Assembly (NCBI GenBank): GCA_016936555.1
Contig: JAFGXR010000003.1
Location: 62,001 to 126,000, forward strand
DNA length: 64,000 bases
Direction of reading: 5' to 3'
Origin: Spirochaetales bacterium
GTDB taxonomy: Bacteria > Spirochaetota > Spirochaetia > DSM-2461
Shown: one piece after another, positions 46,549 to 57,035 of the stretch
Layout of the letters: each line of letters begins with the position of its first letter
How positions within the stretch are numbered: position 1 is the first letter of the stretch
The notes under the pieces: generated by a model
Seen by the model: only the letters and a program-made list of their open reading frames with translations
Told to the model about the DNA's origin: nothing
Database searches by the model: none
Made by a program: the position numbers and the translations under genes

Positions 46549-48936
46549 TCAATCTATTTCCAGAACTTCACGCAACTTTTTAGCCAGGCTGCCCATGGAA
46601 AAAGGCTTCTGAATAAAGAGAGATCCCGATTCGAGGATATTGTGCTGAACGATGGCGTTATCAGCGTAACCGGACATATAGAGAACTTTCAAATCCGCCC
46701 TCTGTGAGGCCGCTTTTTCGAAAAGCTCCCTGCCGTTCATATCGGGCATGATCACATCGGTAAGCAATAGATCAACTTTGCCCTGGAAGCCTGCGAGAAG
46801 GTTCAGCGCTTCCGTACCGTTATTCCCGCTGAGCACATGATATCCCAGGTCGCGGAGAATCATTTCAGTCAGCTCTTTCACCTGGCTGTTATCTTCGGCG
46901 ACAAGAACAGTTTCAGATCCGCGCCGGCTTTCCCCTTCCATCTCCCGCTCTTCTCCCGGAAGACTTTCCGAACAGAGGGGAAGATATATGTTGAAGGTGG
47001 ATCCCCGTCCCGGCTCACTGTAAACCTGAATATCGCCATTATGCTGGTTGACTATGCCGTATACCGTCGCCAGTCCCAGGCCTATGCCGAATTCCCCTTT
47101 CGTGGAGAAAAAGGGTTCGAAGATCTTATCCTTGATCTCCGGCGCCATCCCCTGCCCCGTATCGCTGATGGCCAGCAGGACATAGAATCCCTGTTCTATG
47201 TTACTGTATTTCCGTCCCGAGCGCTGATCCATTTCCACCACCGTAAGCTCTATGGTGAGGACACCGCCCGACGGCATGGCATCCTGACCATTCACACAGA
47301 GATTGAGAATGACCTGTTCGATCTGCCCCGGATCGGCCATGACGGCGGGAGTGATTTCCGACTCGACTATTTCAATGGAAATATTCTCGCGGATGGTTCT
47401 TTTCAGCAGCTTCTGAAACCCCGTAACCACTTTGTTCAGGTCCAGAGGCTTGTACTCCAGCTCCTGTTTGCGGCTAAACGCGAGCAGCTGCTGTACCAGA
47501 TCGCGGGCTTTTCCTCCCGCGTTGAAGATCTGCCGGATCTGCCGGTTCAAAGACTCTTCCGGTATTTTATTCATCAGCATTTCGCTGTAGCCGAGAATGG
47601 GAGTGAGAAGATTATTCAGGTCATGGGCCACGCCGCTGGCAAGCCTTCCTATGGACTCGACTTTCTGGGTCTGCTGGAGCTGCTCTTCAATACGCGATTT
47701 CTCCTCCAGTTCAATCCGCATCAGTTCAAAGACGCGGGCGGTTTCATCGACTTCCCGGTAGGCTGTCTCTATATTGAGAGGACTTTTCAGGTTGCCGCTC
47801 CCGACAGACTTGGCCGCCCCCTGAAGGCGGAGCAGAGGCTGAACGATCGACCGGGTTATGAGAAACCCGATGAGAATGGTAATCAGCCCGACCGACAGGG
47901 AAATGAAGACTGAAAAAGTCCTGTTCTTTTTCAGTGCTCCGATATAATCATCTTCGGGAATGTAGATCCCCAGGAGCCAGGGCCAGTATGAAGCTTTGAA
48001 CGGAGCGAACATGGCATGAAAGACCTGTCTGTCGTGTTTAAAAGTAAAAAAAAGCTCGCTCTTTTCATCGAGTTCGTACTCTTTGGACAGAAGAGCTTCG
48101 TAAGCTGCTTTGCTGATCTCATCATCCAGCTCTCCGATGGTTGCCAGATGAACCGCGTCATCATCGGTATTGACTGTCAGCCGGCTTTTCTCAGGGTATG
48201 CCAGAACTTTACCCTTATTATCGAGAATAAAGGCTTTTCCGCTTTTGCCTATGCTGAGAGTCGCCAGAAAATCGGAAAGCTCGGATATCTCGATATCGAC
48301 ACCCACAACGCCGTGGAGAGAACCGTTCTCATTGTATACGGGACTGGCTGTCGTTATACCGGGATTCCGCGAAGTGAAAAATACATAAGGATCGGTCCAG
48401 ATCAGGCTTCCGGCTTCAATCGCCTGGCTGAACCAGGGCCTTTTCCTCGGATCATAGGTGTCGCTATTGTCCTGATACCGGTCTTTTTCCTGAAAAAAGA
48501 GATCGGTTTCCCGGAACTGAACGGAGCGTCCGCTCTCGCTTATGGAAATGTTTTTCGTCATAAATCCCTCATCGTTACGACGGGAAACCATGACGAACTC
48601 GCCATCGACCGTTCCATAATAAATATTGGAAAACTGGGAATTGACCAGCAACTGCTCAAAAAAATAATGCTCCATCTCGGTTTTACGGCTCGATGTGACG
48701 ATTTTATTGACCGCCAGGCCGCTGGTCAGAAGGGCCGCATCCCTGGCCGGATAGAGGTGGCTCCGAGATTTGTCTATAGTGTAGGATGAAATATTCCCCA
48801 TAATCTCTCTGGCATGCTCGGTGAAAACCTGCTTGGACGAGACGTAAGTGGACAGGATGATGAAGCTTATGATTCCCATTACGAGACCGGGCATTCCCAG
48901 GATAAGAATCAGGCGAATTGATATTTTCTTTTTCAC
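46549..48936 (-). CDS. Cache-HAMP hybrid sensor histidine kinase with receiver
   Basis: About 795 residues. A first helix (~10-32) and second (~330-350) flank a periplasmic double-Cache domain (for example DTYDPRKRPWFSQAIEAG and VVGVDIEISELSDFLA). HAMP follows, then HisKA with LASGVAHDLNNLLTPILGYS, an ATPase domain with NLCVNGQDAMPSGG and GIGLGLATVYGIV, and a C-terminal receiver with VLVAEDNS, LLLTDVIMPD and FIQKPFS. Cache domains sense small organic molecules. I choose a GTG at 48936 because the promoter places transcription there; ATGs at 48942 and 48957 lie too close to or inside it. It leads an operon with the DUF1576-like gene. Confidence 0.88.
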   Translation of the reverse strand: MKKKISIRLILILGMPGLVMGIISFIILSTYVSSKQVFTEHAREIMGNISSYTIDKSRSHLYPARDAALLTSGLAVNKIVTSSRKTEMEHYFFEQLLVNSQFSNIYYGTVDGEFVMVSRRNDEGFMTKNISISESGRSVQFRETDLFFQEKDRYQDNSDTYDPRKRPWFSQAIEAGSLIWTDPYVFFTSRNPGITTASPVYNENGSLHGVVGVDIEISELSDFLATLSIGKSGKAFILDNKGKVLAYPEKSRLTVNTDDDAVHLATIGELDDEISKAAYEALLSKEYELDEKSELFFTFKHDRQVFHAMFAPFKASYWPWLLGIYIPEDDYIGALKKNRTFSVFISLSVGLITILIGFLITRSIVQPLLRLQGAAKSVGSGNLKSPLNIETAYREVDETARVFELMRIELEEKSRIEEQLQQTQKVESIGRLASGVAHDLNNLLTPILGYSEMLMNKIPEESLNRQIRQIFNAGGKARDLVQQLLAFSRKQELEYKPLDLNKVVTGFQKLLKRTIRENISIEIVESEITPAVMADPGQIEQVILNLCVNGQDAMPSGGVLTIELTVVEMDQRSGRKYSNIEQGFYVLLAISDTGQGMAPEIKDKIFEPFFSTKGEFGIGLGLATVYGIVNQHNGDIQVYSEPGRGSTFNIYLPLCSESLPGEEREMEGESRRGSETVLVAEDNSQVKELTEMILRDLGYHVLSGNNGTEALNLLAGFQGKVDLLLTDVIMPDMNGRELFEKAASQRADLKVLYMSGYADNAIVQHNILESGSLFIQKPFSMGSLAKKLREVLEID

Positions 48937-48944
48937 GTTCATAT

Positions 48945-48973
48945 ATGATAAGTTCATAAAAATAGGGTGTCAA
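48945..48973 (-). promoter_or_regulatory. Promoter of the Cache kinase operon
   Basis: Perfect TTGACA (48968-48973), 17 bases, TATCAT (48945-48950) on the minus strand. The -10 ends eight bases before the GTG at 48936 and two bases before the ATG at 48942. Confidence 0.65.
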
Positions 48974-50286: not shown

Positions 50287-52026
50287 ATGCAGAAATTCAA
50301 TAAATACAGCAGAAGACTTATTATCACGACAGCGCTCTATTTTCTCGTGCAGGTTCTCTATTCCTGGAGAATGGAACCGGCAGGAAAAGCCCAGCTGTTC
50401 GCTTTTATTTCAGCGGCCATTATCGGGGCCAATATCTTCTTTATAATCAGACTGAATAACAAACTCAGCGATCAGCTGCTCAAGGTTTACAACAGTTACC
50501 TGCTGATTTCGACCTTCGGTTTTTATCTGGCTTACTGCCTTAAGGCATCGCTGATAACAAGCGATCCCGATATTCTGAAAACCCCATTATTCCTGGAACT
50601 TTTGCTACTTGCCGCGCTGCTCTTCAACGCCTGGCAGATTTTTCTCTATTCCCGTGAGATAAAAGCGAGAGAAAAGAAAAACGCCAAAAAGAAAAAGACT
50701 CTCTTCGGCGAAATTTTCAGCTGGGTAGATGCTCTGCTTTCCGCGGTAATCTTTGTTCTTCTTATCAATATTTTCCTGATTCAGATCTATAGCATTCCTT
50801 CCGAATCGATGTATCCCGTCTTTTTCGTAAAGGACAGACCGGTCGTCGATAAGATTACAAGAGGCCCCGAGCTTCCCTTCACACGGTTCCGCATTCCGTC
50901 GCTTCAGAAAATTCATAGAGGCGACATCGTCACTTTCCGGAATCCCAAATATGCGAAAACAGTAGAAAGCGAACTGAAACACCTCTTGTCGCAGTTTCTT
51001 TATATGATCACCTTTACGACCGTTAACATCGACCGCTACGATGAATCGGGAAAAGAAAAAGCCGATCCCCTGGTCAAGAGAGTCGTCGGTCTTCCGGGAG
51101 AACAGATTCAGATCATAAATGATGTTATCTATTACCGCGAGAGCCTGAAGGAAGAGTTCAAAGTTCTTGAAGAGAACATTCACTCCCGGACCGACCTCTA
51201 CAATCTGCCCCAGAGCAGCCTGAACCACCTCCAGTTCCTCCCCGTCGACAGAAGCGCCAGGGAGATGCTGGACCTATGGGACAGCGCTATCGATCAGCTC
51301 GACAGTACGGCTGTTCTGAACGATATCAACAGGATCAGGCTGGAAGCGGGCCGCATCCGGGAAAGGCTTCTGGAAACCCAGTCGGCAACGGTAAAAAACG
51401 GACTTCAGAACAAATACGACAGAATCAACAAGGGAGATATCTCCATAGATCTCTCCTACCATCCCTTTCAGAAAATCGAAAACCTGCGCGATGACAACGT
51501 CCATTTTATCTATAACATCGACGATGGTGAACTATGGAACCGGGGCTGGGATTTCCTTTCCCGTCTATCCACCGGCGGTGAGGGCGCTTTTTTCGATGCG
51601 GCGTCAAAAACGGATATGAGATACAAGCAGATTGTCAGCAACTGGATCCTCGACAACCTGAAATATATGGAGAAGGTCTTTGCGGGCCTTCCCACCGATA
51701 CGGCCGAAGCAGAGCTGGAGGAGGATGAAATCCTGCTGGGAGAATTCCTCAATTACATCCTCAGGTATTACGATTTCAGAAATCTTCCCCCCTTCCCGGA
51801 AAAGGGGCTGATTGAGGAAGACAACTACTTCGTGATGGGAGACAACCGGTACAATTCTCTGGACCTGAGACACGGGCTGAATAAAGAGGACCGCTTCTTC
51901 ACAGGAGATGAAGAGAACAGCTTCGTCTACAAATCCTACCTCAACCCCGTAACCATTGACGAGCGGTGGATCGAGGGATTTGTCGTCTTCCGCCTCTTCC
52001 CGCTGGGGCGGATAGGAATCCCCTGA
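50287..52026 (+). CDS. lepB: Signal peptidase I with extra membrane helices and a large insertion
   Basis: 579 residues, much longer than usual (about 250-350). Four extra hydrophobic segments (residues ~10-120) precede the normal anchor (~147-168). The catalytic Ser174 lies in IPSESMYPV and the general base Lys264 in LVKRVVGLPGE, with the standard substrate-site RGDIVTFRNP between. Box E, YFVMGDNRYNSLDLR, comes only near residue 515. The ~230 residues between (285-510) are a helical insertion without known motif. It should cleave signal peptides outside the membrane; the insertion may select substrates or bind a partner. The GNAT-kinase gene starts two bases later. Confidence 0.87.
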   Translation: MQKFNKYSRRLIITTALYFLVQVLYSWRMEPAGKAQLFAFISAAIIGANIFFIIRLNNKLSDQLLKVYNSYLLISTFGFYLAYCLKASLITSDPDILKTPLFLELLLLAALLFNAWQIFLYSREIKAREKKNAKKKKTLFGEIFSWVDALLSAVIFVLLINIFLIQIYSIPSESMYPVFFVKDRPVVDKITRGPELPFTRFRIPSLQKIHRGDIVTFRNPKYAKTVESELKHLLSQFLYMITFTTVNIDRYDESGKEKADPLVKRVVGLPGEQIQIINDVIYYRESLKEEFKVLEENIHSRTDLYNLPQSSLNHLQFLPVDRSAREMLDLWDSAIDQLDSTAVLNDINRIRLEAGRIRERLLETQSATVKNGLQNKYDRINKGDISIDLSYHPFQKIENLRDDNVHFIYNIDDGELWNRGWDFLSRLSTGGEGAFFDAASKTDMRYKQIVSNWILDNLKYMEKVFAGLPTDTAEAELEEDEILLGEFLNYILRYYDFRNLPPFPEKGLIEEDNYFVMGDNRYNSLDLRHGLNKEDRFFTGDEENSFVYKSYLNPVTIDERWIEGFVVFRLFPLGRIGIP

Positions 52027-52027
52027 T

Positions 52028-53998
52028 ATGGTTGCCATATCAAAAAACTCGATCAGCCCCCTGACTCCCGAACTGGAAAAGCGGATCCTTCACAATCCTC
52101 TGCTCAATATAGACACCTTTATCATTCCCTCCCCTTATGTAAAAAATCCCAATCTGATAAAGGATTACGAGCACAGTTTCGTCTACATGCACGAGGGAGA
52201 GCTGCTGGGGTACATTCTCGTTTACGCCGACAGGGAGAAAAAGGACTTCCTCATTTATAAAGTGACGACGAGCCCCTTCGGCCGCGGCATGGGTATCGGC
52301 ACCCTGTTTATCGAATTTCTGGCGGAGATGATTCCCACGGGCTCCACCATCAGCCTTTACGTCTGGGAAAAGCAGCAGGATACCATGGAGTTTTTCACCA
52401 GCATGGGCTTTGTTTCCGAGGAATCCATTGTCTACAGGAATCTGATTTATCACTATTTTTCCGCTACCAGAGCCCAGATTATCAAACGGACCAGTAACAG
52501 GAAGATACGGGGGAACTCCGCCCTGGAGGAAATCGGCAACACCCGCCATGACGCCCGGAAAGTGGTGAGGCTCCTCTCCTCCATGGTGGAAAAACTGGCC
52601 CTGGAAAACTGCGACCGCATTATAGAGGACATAAACCGGGAAACGACGGGACTTATCAATATCCTGAACTCTTTCCGGGACAGCATCGAAACGATCCACG
52701 AAGTGGATCTGAAAGACCTGATAACCGAAAGAATCATTCCCTATATCGAAACATCCATACAGAACTGCGATATCAAGTTTCATATGGAATCGCGCATCTC
52801 CTCTATCAAAGGCTCCTACGTCAATATCAGCCGGGCTCTGATCAACCTCTTCGCCAACTCTATCGACGCCATAAAGGAGAAAGGGGAGAGAGGCATGATT
52901 ACCATACAGCTCTCCCAGGACGAAGAGAACGTCTACCTGATGGCCGGAGACAACGGCACGGGGATCCAAGCTGAACTGCTGATTAAGGACGAAAAGGGAT
53001 ATCCCGCCTTTGTGGGCCAGACTACGAAGATCCGCAAACAGGGCGAAGGGCTCGGTTCGGTTCAGATTTTTTCAACCATCGGCGTGGAGAACATCGCCAT
53101 AAACAGCGTCGTGGGAGAGGGGACCTACTGGACGCTGCGGTTCAAGAAGAAACAGAAGGAGAAGGAGAAGTGGTTCATGAGCCTGGAACGGCGCTATTTC
53201 GAATTCACGGGCCTTCAGGAGTCGACAAAAATCACAGAGCGAACGCCCCACAATGCAGTCATTTCAGTTATATGGCAAATGCGGAAAATGGAGATCTTCC
53301 TCTTCGACATCATTATGCAGTTCAGCAAATTCCACAATATGCGCGATGTCTACCGGCAGATTCTCGTTTATCTCCAGGGGTACGAGTCGGAAGAGAAACT
53401 CCTCGAGACGATCGAAAGCTACCGCTGCGACCATCCGGTCATCAAAAAATGGATGTACCGCATTTCCCTGGGCATCCGGGGAACCATGGTGAAGCTGGAA
53501 AAACATGTGGAACTGAATGAATACAGGGGAGAGCTTTTCAAGAGCTATGGCCAGGCTATCGGCAATATCATGATCTTTACCCTCGACCCGGAGACCGGGA
53601 ACTTTCTGGTTACGGACCGCAAGCTGGCGGAGCACTTCGACTTTGTCTATTACCTGAAAAAAGAGCGGGATGAACTGTTAAGAGGCGAATTTATCGGCGA
53701 TATGAAAAACCCCGACAGCCCGATCCTCTTCGGCGTATGGCACATCGATTCCGACGAAGACCTTCTGGCAAAGCTGAAGCTGATACGGGAAGGGGCGCGC
53801 CGCCTCGTCCAAATCGGCATTGACGAGACCAAAAAGCTGGCTTTCTATCAGACGACCTACTGCGAAAACGACAAGGACATCAATACGGACATGACAACGA
53901 CTTTCGGAGAGTTTATCCATCTGAAAGATGAAGAGCTTACACAGTTCATGCGAACAGCCGACGATGAATTCGCCGGCTTTCTGGTTCACCGGGACTGA
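52028..53998 (+). CDS. GNAT domain fused to a histidine kinase core
   Basis: 656 residues, soluble. Residues ~1-145 are a GNAT acetyltransferase fold with the acetyl-CoA loop SPFGRGMGIGTLF (Arg86 to Gly91). A dimerisation helix follows with His174 in NTRHDARKVVRLL, an H-box-like phospho-acceptor. The ATPase domain has N-box residues Asn274 and Asn278, DNGTGI at 309-314 and GEGLG at 340-344, so nucleotide binding is expected. The last ~280 residues are a domain I do not recognise. The gene is two bases after lepB, so they are one operon. It may sense acetyl-CoA or an acetylated substrate; no response regulator is adjacent, but a second kinase gene lies convergent, one base away. Confidence 0.75.
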   Translation: MVAISKNSISPLTPELEKRILHNPLLNIDTFIIPSPYVKNPNLIKDYEHSFVYMHEGELLGYILVYADREKKDFLIYKVTTSPFGRGMGIGTLFIEFLAEMIPTGSTISLYVWEKQQDTMEFFTSMGFVSEESIVYRNLIYHYFSATRAQIIKRTSNRKIRGNSALEEIGNTRHDARKVVRLLSSMVEKLALENCDRIIEDINRETTGLINILNSFRDSIETIHEVDLKDLITERIIPYIETSIQNCDIKFHMESRISSIKGSYVNISRALINLFANSIDAIKEKGERGMITIQLSQDEENVYLMAGDNGTGIQAELLIKDEKGYPAFVGQTTKIRKQGEGLGSVQIFSTIGVENIAINSVVGEGTYWTLRFKKKQKEKEKWFMSLERRYFEFTGLQESTKITERTPHNAVISVIWQMRKMEIFLFDIIMQFSKFHNMRDVYRQILVYLQGYESEEKLLETIESYRCDHPVIKKWMYRISLGIRGTMVKLEKHVELNEYRGELFKSYGQAIGNIMIFTLDPETGNFLVTDRKLAEHFDFVYYLKKERDELLRGEFIGDMKNPDSPILFGVWHIDSDEDLLAKLKLIREGARRLVQIGIDETKKLAFYQTTYCENDKDINTDMTTTFGEFIHLKDEELTQFMRTADDEFAGFLVHRD

Positions 53999-53999
53999 T

Positions 54000-55259
54000 T
54001 CAGCCGCGGGCCAGAGTAATTGTAATTTGCGTTCCTTCCGATGAAGTGCGGATTTTCATCGATGCTCCGTACTTATCAAGAGTCCGCCTAACTGAAATCA
54101 TACCGAGACCTGTTCCCGCGATTTTCGTTGTCCGGCCGACCTTGAATACATCACAGCCCGAGCATTCGCCTTTGCAGTTCTTTTCCAGACAGGCCCTGAT
54201 GCCGGGACCGTTATCCTTAAAAGTTATTATGCTTACCTCTGCCTTTCCACTTATGCCAACTGATAGTAGGGCATCGAAATCCTTCATCCCCTGTTCTTCC
54301 AGAGCTTTTTTATGCTCTACCAGAGCTTCATAGGCATTTTTCAGCAGGTTTTCAAACACCTGGGAGATTTCCGAAGGATTGCCGTAAAAGAAAACTTCAT
54401 CAATAAAATCCGTTTTTGTTGTTACGATTCTGAACTGCCTGTTGATATTGAAGACTTCCAGAAGGCTGTAAAGGAGGGCATTGATACTGAACTCCATATC
54501 GGCTTCAGCCTGGGAATACTTGGCCAGGGTCAGGATATTGCGTATTTTCGCCTGAAGATTTTTATTGCCCCTTTGAACGAACTCGACGGCTTTGTGGTCA
54601 ACCTCTTCCTCCAGCATACTCGCAGCCATGGTCATAAGCCCCAGATCACCGTTCATATTGTGAACAAGTCCGGAGATATTTTCCCCGAGATTGACGAAAA
54701 CCCGGCTTTTTTCGATCTGGGTATTGAGTTTCTGGTTTTCGAGGGTGAGGCGTTTGATATCATCTTCAAAGACGATAAAAATCAAAATCACAGTTGCGGC
54801 GAGAAAAGCCAGTTCATTCGGTAAATGCCAGATTGTCAACTCTTCGGAAACTGTTCCAAGAGCGCCATAGTTCATAAAACTTACAACAATGGACAGAACA
54901 AGCAAGATGAGAAGTGAAGTATGATAGAGCTTGGCGCTTGTAAAAATTCTGTACTTTTTTGATAAAAAATAGATGAATATCAAGAGTAGATATCCAACCT
55001 GATTCGTTACGGGATTCGTCATAATCGTAAAATATGATATCAGCAGGAGAAAAATGACCTGGACTCTTTTAGTGGCTCCCCCTGATTTTAAAAAGAACAG
55101 GAGGAGAAAAATCGCGATAAAAACAAAAAAAGGTAATAACTGGGAAAGTGACGTCTCCTCGTTGCTCTTCATTATATTAAAGAATAAAGTCACACAGAAG
55201 AAAAAGAAGAAAAGAATATTTACCTTCTGGTATTGATCAATTCCACCAGAAATCACCAC
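54000..55259 (-). CDS. Membrane sensor histidine kinase
   Basis: About 420 residues. Six hydrophobic helices (first one phenylalanine-rich, ILFFFFFCVTLFF) form a membrane sensor without a periplasmic domain. The phospho-acceptor region reads ENISGLVHNMNGDLGLMTMA, and the ATPase domain has NLLKNAYEALVEH, KDNGPGI, and GTGLGMISVRRTL. An unusual CLEKNCKGECSGCDVFKVG segment sits in the ATP lid; four Cys could bind metal or an iron-sulfur cluster. The start is uncertain: GTG codons at 55259 and 55256 overlap the previous gene slightly and keep all six helices, while the ATG at 55172 would drop the first. It is co-transcribed with the gene at 55237-55641. Confidence 0.78.
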   Translation of the reverse strand: MVISGGIDQYQKVNILFFFFFCVTLFFNIMKSNEETSLSQLLPFFVFIAIFLLLFFLKSGGATKRVQVIFLLLISYFTIMTNPVTNQVGYLLLIFIYFLSKKYRIFTSAKLYHTSLLILLVLSIVVSFMNYGALGTVSEELTIWHLPNELAFLAATVILIFIVFEDDIKRLTLENQKLNTQIEKSRVFVNLGENISGLVHNMNGDLGLMTMAASMLEEEVDHKAVEFVQRGNKNLQAKIRNILTLAKYSQAEADMEFSINALLYSLLEVFNINRQFRIVTTKTDFIDEVFFYGNPSEISQVFENLLKNAYEALVEHKKALEEQGMKDFDALLSVGISGKAEVSIITFKDNGPGIRACLEKNCKGECSGCDVFKVGRTTKIAGTGLGMISVRRTLDKYGASMKIRTSSEGTQITITLARG

Positions 55260-55641
55260 GAAGGTTCTCTTCCCCGGATACTTCCCCTCCGGATTCTCCC
55301 TGACGCGCCCAATTGGCTTTCTCGATTTTGACCCACTCATCTATTTTTCCTTCGTTCTTTTCCTGACCGGGAGTCCGGAATACGGTGAACCTCTCATCGG
55401 GGTTCTTTCTGAAATAATCGGTCGCGGGGAAAATATCATGGACAGCTTCGACTGCCAGCAATATGACTCCGCGGCGGAAGAGGTAGACTTTCTGCTCCTC
55501 ATCGGCTTTGTACCCGTTAACCATCTCATATAATTCCCTGAATCTCTCGAAAAGTCCACGATTTTCCCACTCTGCGGCAATAAATCCCTGTACAGCCTTC
55601 TCCGTTTCAGCGATGACCTGTTCGAAAATGCTCTGATTCAT
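55237..55641 (-). CDS. Soluble protein of unknown function upstream of the kinase
   Basis: 134 residues, acidic, no signal peptide and no cysteine. Helical N-terminal half (FEQVIAETEKAVQGFIAAEW, then RFRELYEMVNGYKADEEQ), more polar C-terminal half ending DFWWN. I do not recognise a family. AGGGAGAG lies before the ATG. It overlaps or abuts the downstream kinase gene, so it may be a partner or ligand-binding regulator of that kinase. Confidence 0.55.
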   Translation of the reverse strand: MNQSIFEQVIAETEKAVQGFIAAEWENRGLFERFRELYEMVNGYKADEEQKVYLFRRGVILLAVEAVHDIFPATDYFRKNPDERFTVFRTPGQEKNEGKIDEWVKIEKANWARQGESGGEVSGEENLRGDFWWN

Positions 55642-55702: not shown

Positions 55703-56944
55703 TTATTTGTCATCCCAGAGAAAGACTCTGTCCCGTCCCTCTTCTTTTGCCCGGTAGAGGGCCTTGTCAGCATGCTTCAGAAGGATTTCCGCCGATAAAC
55801 GGCGGTCGTTGACAGCGATTCCGCAGGAAAAAGTGAATTTCATATCGATATTGTTATGAGTAACGGTCAGCGACCTGACGATTTTGAGCAATTTGCCAGC
55901 AATGAGGAGAGCCTCTTCACGGTTGGTCCGGGGTAGAAGGACGAGAAATTCCTCACCTCCCCAGCGGGCTTTGAGATCCGTTTCCCGCAGATCGCTCCGG
56001 AGGACATCGGCCATTTTCTTTATAACCTCGTCCCCGGCATCATGGCCATAGCGGTCGTTGACCAGCTTGAAATGGTCCAGATCGATCATGAGGAGGGAGA
56101 ATGTCACTTCGGAGCGCTTGTAGTCGCTGATAAAATGATCGAGAATATTGACCATGAAACGGCGGTTCGACAGACCCGTCATATGATCGGTTATAGACAG
56201 TTCCTCCAGAAGGATATTCTGCTCGCGGATTTTCTGTTCCTGATTTTTCTGTTCGGTGACATCGACGATAAGCCCCTGGACCATTTCGAACAAGCCGTCG
56301 TCGGAACGAAAGTGGTTATCGTAGCTTCTGACCCACCTCACTTCGCCGTCTTTCCGGATGATTCTGTATTCCGATTCGTTTTCGTAACCGGGCTTCTCGT
56401 AGATGCGAAGCCCCTCTTCGGCCATTCTGTCCCTGTCGTCGGGATGAATGATCTCAAGCCAGGAAGCCAGATCCCGCGACTGATCCTCCGTATATCCCGT
56501 CAGCCGCTCCAGGGCTCCCGAGGTAAACATGGCCAGACGCTCGGGCTTGAGCATTCTCTGAAAGGCGATTCCCCGGAGATTATCGATAAACTGCCGGTAG
56601 CCCGATGCCCGGAACAGCATGTATTCCTCTTTGCGCTCGTACTCGGTGAAGTCGATTCCCATCAGTTCATACAATCCCTTTCCCTTTCTGTTACAACCCG
56701 CTCTGAAAGATCGGCCTGTGGAGGCAAAATTGAGAATCATGGTTTCACGGGTCAGGATTTTTTCCAGGGAGAGCTCCCATTTATCGCCGAACGCTTTCTC
56801 GGCGATATTTCTTCCTTCCTCGCATTCCAGACCGGAAAGAGCCCGGAACCTGTTATTGCAGTCTATCAGGGACAATGAAGATTCATCACAAGAGACAAGA
56901 GCATAGGCCATCGAAAATTTCCCGGGATCCATCATCCTTTCCAT
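55703..56944 (-). CDS. PAS-GGDEF diguanylate cyclase, cytoplasmic
   Basis: About 413 residues, no membrane helix. Two PAS-like domains (~10-115 and ~125-245; the second with LTGYTEDQSRDLASWLEIIHP and GEVRWVRSYD, and a PAC end VDVTEQK) precede GGDEF. The active motif is GGEEF with an Arg-Glu-Thr-Asp I-site, both intact. It should make c-di-GMP in response to a soluble or redox signal. The start is placed at the ATG at 56944 because the -10 box ends seven bases upstream; an ATG 63 bases further up lies in the divergent gene's promoter zone. Confidence 0.88.
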   Translation of the reverse strand: MERMMDPGKFSMAYALVSCDESSLSLIDCNNRFRALSGLECEEGRNIAEKAFGDKWELSLEKILTRETMILNFASTGRSFRAGCNRKGKGLYELMGIDFTEYERKEEYMLFRASGYRQFIDNLRGIAFQRMLKPERLAMFTSGALERLTGYTEDQSRDLASWLEIIHPDDRDRMAEEGLRIYEKPGYENESEYRIIRKDGEVRWVRSYDNHFRSDDGLFEMVQGLIVDVTEQKNQEQKIREQNILLEELSITDHMTGLSNRRFMVNILDHFISDYKRSEVTFSLLMIDLDHFKLVNDRYGHDAGDEVIKKMADVLRSDLRETDLKARWGGEEFLVLLPRTNREEALLIAGKLLKIVRSLTVTHNNIDMKFTFSCGIAVNDRRLSAEILLKHADKALYRAKEEGRDRVFLWDDK

Positions 56945-56951
56945 ATATACT

Positions 56952-56980
56952 ATTGTCTTACGGCGGCCGTAAAATTTCAA
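56952..56980 (-). promoter_or_regulatory. Promoter with a palindromic operator in its spacer
   Basis: TTGAAA (56975-56980), 17 bases, GACAAT (56952-56957), then seven bases to the ATG at 56944. The spacer holds the perfect inverted repeat TTACGGC-G-GCCGTAA (56958-56972), which would place a dimeric regulator between the -35 and -10 boxes. Confidence 0.6.
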
Positions 56981-57006
56981 ACTGATCCCATTACCCTTCC
57001 CGCCCA

Positions 57007-57035
57007 TTGAACGGCGGAGCGATAACCGCTATAAG
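57007..57035 (+). promoter_or_regulatory. Promoter placed for a leaderless start
   Basis: TTGAAC (57007-57012), 17 bases, TATAAG (57030-57035), then six bases to the ATG at 57042. A weak AAGGGA adjoins the ATG but is too close to serve well as Shine-Dalgarno. Confidence 0.6.

Follow-up and report, generated by a model that had tools for sequence, protein, structure and literature searches.

A GNAT domain joined in one frame to a histidine kinase core and a conserved, unassigned C-terminal domain in Spirochaetota

We looked at a gene of a Spirochaetales bacterium in which three parts are joined in a single frame: a GNAT domain, a histidine kinase core made of a DHp hairpin and a CA domain, and a C-terminal domain of no known family. 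The gene lies at positions 52028-53998 of the forward strand of the window, that is, the whole stretch of 64,000 nucleotides that was analysed, and encodes a protein of 656 aa; all the parts of it given below are on the same strand. The reading that we favour, with a probability of about 0.42, is that of a soluble, orphan and kinase-biased histidine kinase in which an acyl-CoA-binding GNAT domain is the input and the new domain at the C-terminus is a partner or the output.

The fusion of the three parts in one frame is real. The ORF contains no internal stop, and the longest open frame found in 300 shuffles of its bases was 205 codons. When the gene was compared with that of the sister genome G002, dN/dS was about 0.02 over its full length and 0.01-0.03 within the individual parts, these ratios being rough since dS is near saturation. 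The protein has no transmembrane segment; because its highest 19-residue Kyte-Doolittle mean is only 1.24, it is probably cytosolic. In the AlphaFold model, the strands and helices of the GNAT come in order; after them a helix runs into a hairpin built from two long helices, and the CA domain and a separate C-terminal domain follow. Both the GNAT fold and the ATPase fold that a sequence-only reading of this gene had proposed are present in the model.

The same domain order was found in Spirochaetota in 59 full-length orthologues (39-95% identity), none of which is split (0/59) into separate genes for the halves. About half of the nearest 61 genomes carry an orthologue, with 29 long matches and one fragment, truncated by the end of its contig, that has the GNAT alone. 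The class-wide search detected orthologues in 61 of 297 genomes. Among 296 genomes sampled across the phylum, 5 had one, and one of these five, G102 (39%), belongs to another class. The 61 loci referred to below are the 59 full-length genes and two incomplete copies ending at contig ends. No split or stand-alone version of the GNAT or the kinase was found, the short copies that were checked ending at contig ends, and a search with the GNAT subfamily alone in 149 genomes of the phylum gave, outside the fusion, only two weak stand-alone GNAT matches. When the C-terminal domain was searched alone in about 600 Spirochaetota genomes, it was present essentially once per genome and only within the GNAT-kinase frame or in copies cut by contig ends, the exception being one 57-residue fragment in genome G420. 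This second, weak match (L122, G420:C167:7315-7485, E 5e-14) lies in a frame of 136 aa that may be a decayed copy and that was not recovered by protein search at E 1e-30. The plasmid search gave no match, and a strict-pattern contig scan using this protein alone picked up nothing but a 79% relative. In the tree of the 59 proteins, most taxonomic families cluster, and members of f1, the family to which the window belongs, are spread among several clades; since most families group together, the tree suggests that inheritance was mainly vertical. These results indicate that the order GNAT, kinase, C-terminal domain is not a local accident and that the three parts are strictly co-inherited.

The gene directly upstream (50287-52026, forward strand) encodes an enlarged signal peptidase I of 579 aa (PF10502, TIGR02227) and lies outside the conserved unit. 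From the sequence alone, it had been proposed that the kinase gene shares an operon with this lepB gene and controls protein export or envelope remodelling. The adjacency itself stands, as lepB ends 1 base upstream of the kinase ORF in the window genome, but the short gap is not conserved: a minus-strand gene lies between the two in G002, and in a further sister genome, G003, they are 139 bases apart, with a terminator-like hairpin and a T-run in the gap. Over the 61 loci, lepB was found beside the kinase gene in the window's genus only and was missing there in all other families. The control of export is thus unsupported, since the adjacency is absent outside the genus and already broken in G002 and G003. 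A kinase unit working with lepB on protein export or the envelope, for which the 1-base gap speaks, is largely refuted by the neighbourhood comparison and we regard it as highly improbable; the lepB operon was rejected as a functional clue. No neighbour, response regulators included, is conserved in the 61 loci, and even ABC-F-like ATPases, one of the commonest neighbour groups, occur at nine of them. Because of this lack of a conserved neighbour, the GNAT-kinase gene is an orphan.

Several observations concern the surrounding genes themselves. The signal peptidase, which is kept in G002 and G003, has extra N-terminal hydrophobic segments, and a long insertion separates the two halves of its S26 domain. 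The intervening gene of G002 (L032) has about 206 codons and is DJ-1/PfpI-like by eye. In the window, a 446-aa histidine kinase with hydrophobic N-terminal segments (54000-55340, reverse strand) is arranged tail to tail with the GNAT-kinase gene, and an 802-aa dCache-HAMP-kinase-receiver hybrid (46549-48957, reverse strand) and a PAS-GGDEF protein (55703-57007) are encoded nearby.

The kinase core starts with a linker helix and the DHp hairpin (residues about 151-222; 52478-52693), where the kinase profile match begins. The AlphaFold model places helices at residues 148-160, 165-189 and 192-220 over this region, with a low pLDDT of 42-49 for the DHp. The sequence-only reading had pointed to His174 as an H-box-like site, and this exact position was confirmed: in the profile alignment, the segment R-H-D-A-R-K falls on S-H-E-L-R-T of T. 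maritima HK853, with His174 (codon 52547-52549), the putative phospho-acceptor, on the His known to accept the phosphate. R173, H174, D175 and K178 are invariant in the 59 orthologues, so that the hairpin, albeit modelled at low pLDDT, carries the acceptor-type His followed by an acidic residue. Pfam HisKA matched only 1 of 30 members, at E 0.11. The CA domain (residues 223-380; 52694-53167) matches PF02518 over residues 266-375 (E 2.2e-7, 31.7 bits for a cut-off of 26.4). As had been claimed, its ATP-binding boxes are complete, all four being present and invariant: N273/N277 for the N box, D308-x-G-x-G312 for G1, P326-x-F-x-G330 for F and G339-x-G-x-G343 for G2, with N273, N277, D308, G310, G312, G339, G341 and G343 each kept in 59/59. 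In three orthologues of family f28 (L049, L098 and L104; 681-718 aa), an insertion near residue 337 sits at the ATP lid, after the F box and before the G2 box.

The core thus shares with NtrB/ZraS/KinB-like kinases (HisKA and HATPase_c) a DHp hairpin with an H-D/E box and a CA domain with N, G1, F and G2 boxes. The whole-family profile ranked solved histidine kinases first, KinB (3d36) being the best match (3.2e-12), together with ZraS (3.1e-9) and HK853 (2.4e-9 to 3e-8), and the modelled CA domain superposes on ZraS 9jfj with a VIA-align Z of 18.9 (rmsd 1.9, 140 residues aligned). Structures of mitochondrial-type PDK and BCKDK likewise give a good fit to the CA domain (Z about 16-17), and this, along with the lack of a linked response regulator, would agree with a core that works like PDK/BCKDK, as a GHKL Ser/Thr kinase, an ATPase or a conformational switch. 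We find this quite improbable, as the H174-D175 pair is invariant in an H-box-like site aligned with the acceptor His of HK853 and bacterial histidine kinases top the sequence-profile ranking. Contrary to the NtrB/ZraS/KinB-like kinases, the window protein has a GNAT input instead of a membrane or PAS input, an extra C-terminal domain of 270 residues, and Lys for Thr/Asn at H+4. HisKA proteins depend on an acidic H+1 residue to act as kinases and on Thr/Asn at H+4 to act as phosphatases (PMC3510030). Since H+1 is the acidic D175 and H+4 is Lys in place of Thr/Asn in all 59 orthologues, we infer a kinase-biased histidine kinase whose phosphatase activity would be weak or absent.

The GNAT domain covers residues 1-150 (52028-52477), including a conserved lead-in, PLLNIDTFIIPSPY. 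Its PF00583 match spans residues 39-128 (E 1.3e-7, 32.3 bits for a cut-off of 20.7), and both PF00583 and PF02518 (HATPase_c) were matched by 30/30 members of alignment A1. The acetyl-CoA pyrophosphate loop that had been noticed in it, R86-G-M-G89-I-G91 (52283-52300), follows the R/QxxGxG/A pattern of the GNAT superfamily as R86xxG89xG91 and is kept among the orthologues (R86 and G89 in 59/59, G91 in 58/59). The motif WEKQQDTMEFFTSMGF (W113-F128; 52364-52411), whose W113 is kept in 59/59, holds position 123, the place of the usual catalytic Tyr of FYxxxGF. This Tyr is the general acid in many GNATs. Position 123 is Phe in 57/59 orthologues, including the window protein, and Tyr in 2/59; this mark of an active GNAT acetyltransferase is therefore missing from 57 of the 59. 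Loss of the Tyr alone does not end GNAT catalysis, and some GNATs function without it. As the CoA loop is invariant while Tyr is replaced by Phe in 57/59, binding fits better than catalysis, and the evidence tilts towards sensing. By analogy, it suggests binding without catalysis, or with altered catalysis, like PanM (PanZ), a GNAT relative without acetyltransferase activity for which a role as acetyl-CoA sensor has been described (PMC4537548). The likeness lies in a non-catalytic, GNAT-fold acetyl-CoA sensor that regulates another protein; the difference is that PanM/PanZ is a small stand-alone protein acting on pro-PanD, with no kinase fusion. By sequence the proteins do not belong to the PanZ family PF12568, which matched 1/30 members at E 0.12, and PanM serves as an analogy only.

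On the side of the GNAT domain where the substrate presumably sits, conservation is very strong in the 59 copies (F31, P34, P36, S50, E58, Y77, K78 and W113). This could fit an enzyme with a fixed substrate and counts against the favoured reading. In that case, the GNAT domain would be an active acetyltransferase and the output of the protein, the state of the kinase (phospho-His174, ATP lid) switching the acetylation of a small molecule or a protein. Besides these invariant residues, the solved GNATs found closest to the N-terminal part by the family profile search include the true enzymes Naa50 and PaiA. The family has in common with PaiA/Naa50-type acetyltransferases the CoA loop and the segment WEK(N/Q)..(A/T)..F(Y/F)xxxGF, and differs from them by Phe for the catalytic Tyr in 57/59 and by a unique N-terminal lead-in, LLNIDTFIIPSPY. 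The change of the general-acid Tyr, the absence of a linked substrate gene in the 61 loci, and the usual placing of histidine kinase outputs, which normally follow the core in the chain or are carried by separate regulators, make such an acetyltransferase output rather unlikely. Alternatively, the kinase or its response regulator might be the target that the GNAT domain acetylates, with acetylation and phosphorylation then competing on one pathway. A precedent of linked but unfused genes exists in Porphyromonas gingivalis, where pat, encoding a GNAT, shares a transcript with rprY, which encodes a response regulator (PMC5706477), and a fusion would hold the enzyme beside its target. No regulator partner is known for this kinase, however, and the catalytic Tyr is absent from most copies; we judge acetylation of a partner to be decidedly unlikely.

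The C-terminal part is made of a helical half (residues 381-510; 53168-53557), with predicted helices mostly above pLDDT 90, and an alpha/beta half (residues 511-645; 53558-53962) without Pfam or NCBIfam family. Folded alone with AlphaFold, these roughly 270 residues gave a confident compact domain (pLDDT 91.2, pTM 0.87). The sequence-only reading had left this part as one of unknown fold, and this description stands, with no family and no clear match among solved folds. Pfam and NCBIfam searches of the last 270 residues or so matched no family of note, the profile search against the PDB gave one match at E 0.24, and Foldseek gave none below E 0.04 in the PDB and none below 0.5 in viral structures. 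A receiver, a PAS or another known domain was rejected, as none of these searches gave a good match. Cofilin/ADF, gelsolin and Tdp2 were likewise rejected as fold relatives, their PDB matches being weak and incoherent. The best, weak fold match of the alpha/beta half was the STAYGREEN (SGR) magnesium dechelatase 7y5y (VIA Z 6.5, under the tool's meaningful level; rmsd 4.3; 114 residues aligned; Foldseek E 0.044; 6% identity), which is too weak for a function to be drawn from it and perhaps reflects merely a common arrangement; 0/16 members matched Staygreen PF12638 at E up to 10. A scan for Staygreen genes in the relatives gave no match either, but as its control gave none, it carries no weight. 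In the alpha/beta half, each named residue of D530-R-K-L-x-E-H-x-D538 and R552-G-E-x-x-G-D558 is present in 59/59. D530, R531, K532, E535, H536, D538, R552, E554 and D558 would form a charged set of the kind seen at active or ligand sites. As judged from its residues, the C-terminal part is a new conserved domain with enzyme-like invariant positions, absent from the family libraries searched.

The favoured reading can be set out as a chain of steps. The N-terminal GNAT domain would bind acetyl-CoA or another acyl-CoA and serve as the input. The state of the ligand would travel via helix 148-160 to the DHp hairpin and determine the rate at which His174 is phosphorylated by the CA domain. The C-terminal domain would be the output, either docking a separately encoded response regulator or being itself a module controlled by the state of the kinase. 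Histidine kinase inputs usually sit N-terminal to the DHp. In the model, the GNAT domain is N-terminal to the DHp and linked to it by a near-continuous helix, and its role as an input is favoured because this placement matches that of the usual inputs. The low confidence of the DHp model (pLDDT 42-49) and the lack of a response regulator tied to the kinase count against the favoured reading. It is also conceivable, though unlikely, that the C-terminal domain directly uses the phosphoryl group or the conformational state of a kinase set by the GNAT domain, with no separate response regulator. The user would then be the domain bearing D530-R-K, E535-H-x-D538 and R552-G-E-x-x-G-D558, and metabolism would be both read and acted upon within one protein.

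Our literature search, which covered open-licence papers only, found no description of a histidine kinase that has a GNAT domain built in as its input, and we know of no such kinase. Acetyl-CoA is a central readout of the carbon state of a cell. It is plausible that acetyl-CoA serves as the input of the kinase in this family, which would represent a new, GNAT-input variant of histidine kinases with a C-terminal domain lacking annotation. In these free-living spirochaetes, the acetyl-CoA state of the cell could thereby feed straight into phosphate signalling.
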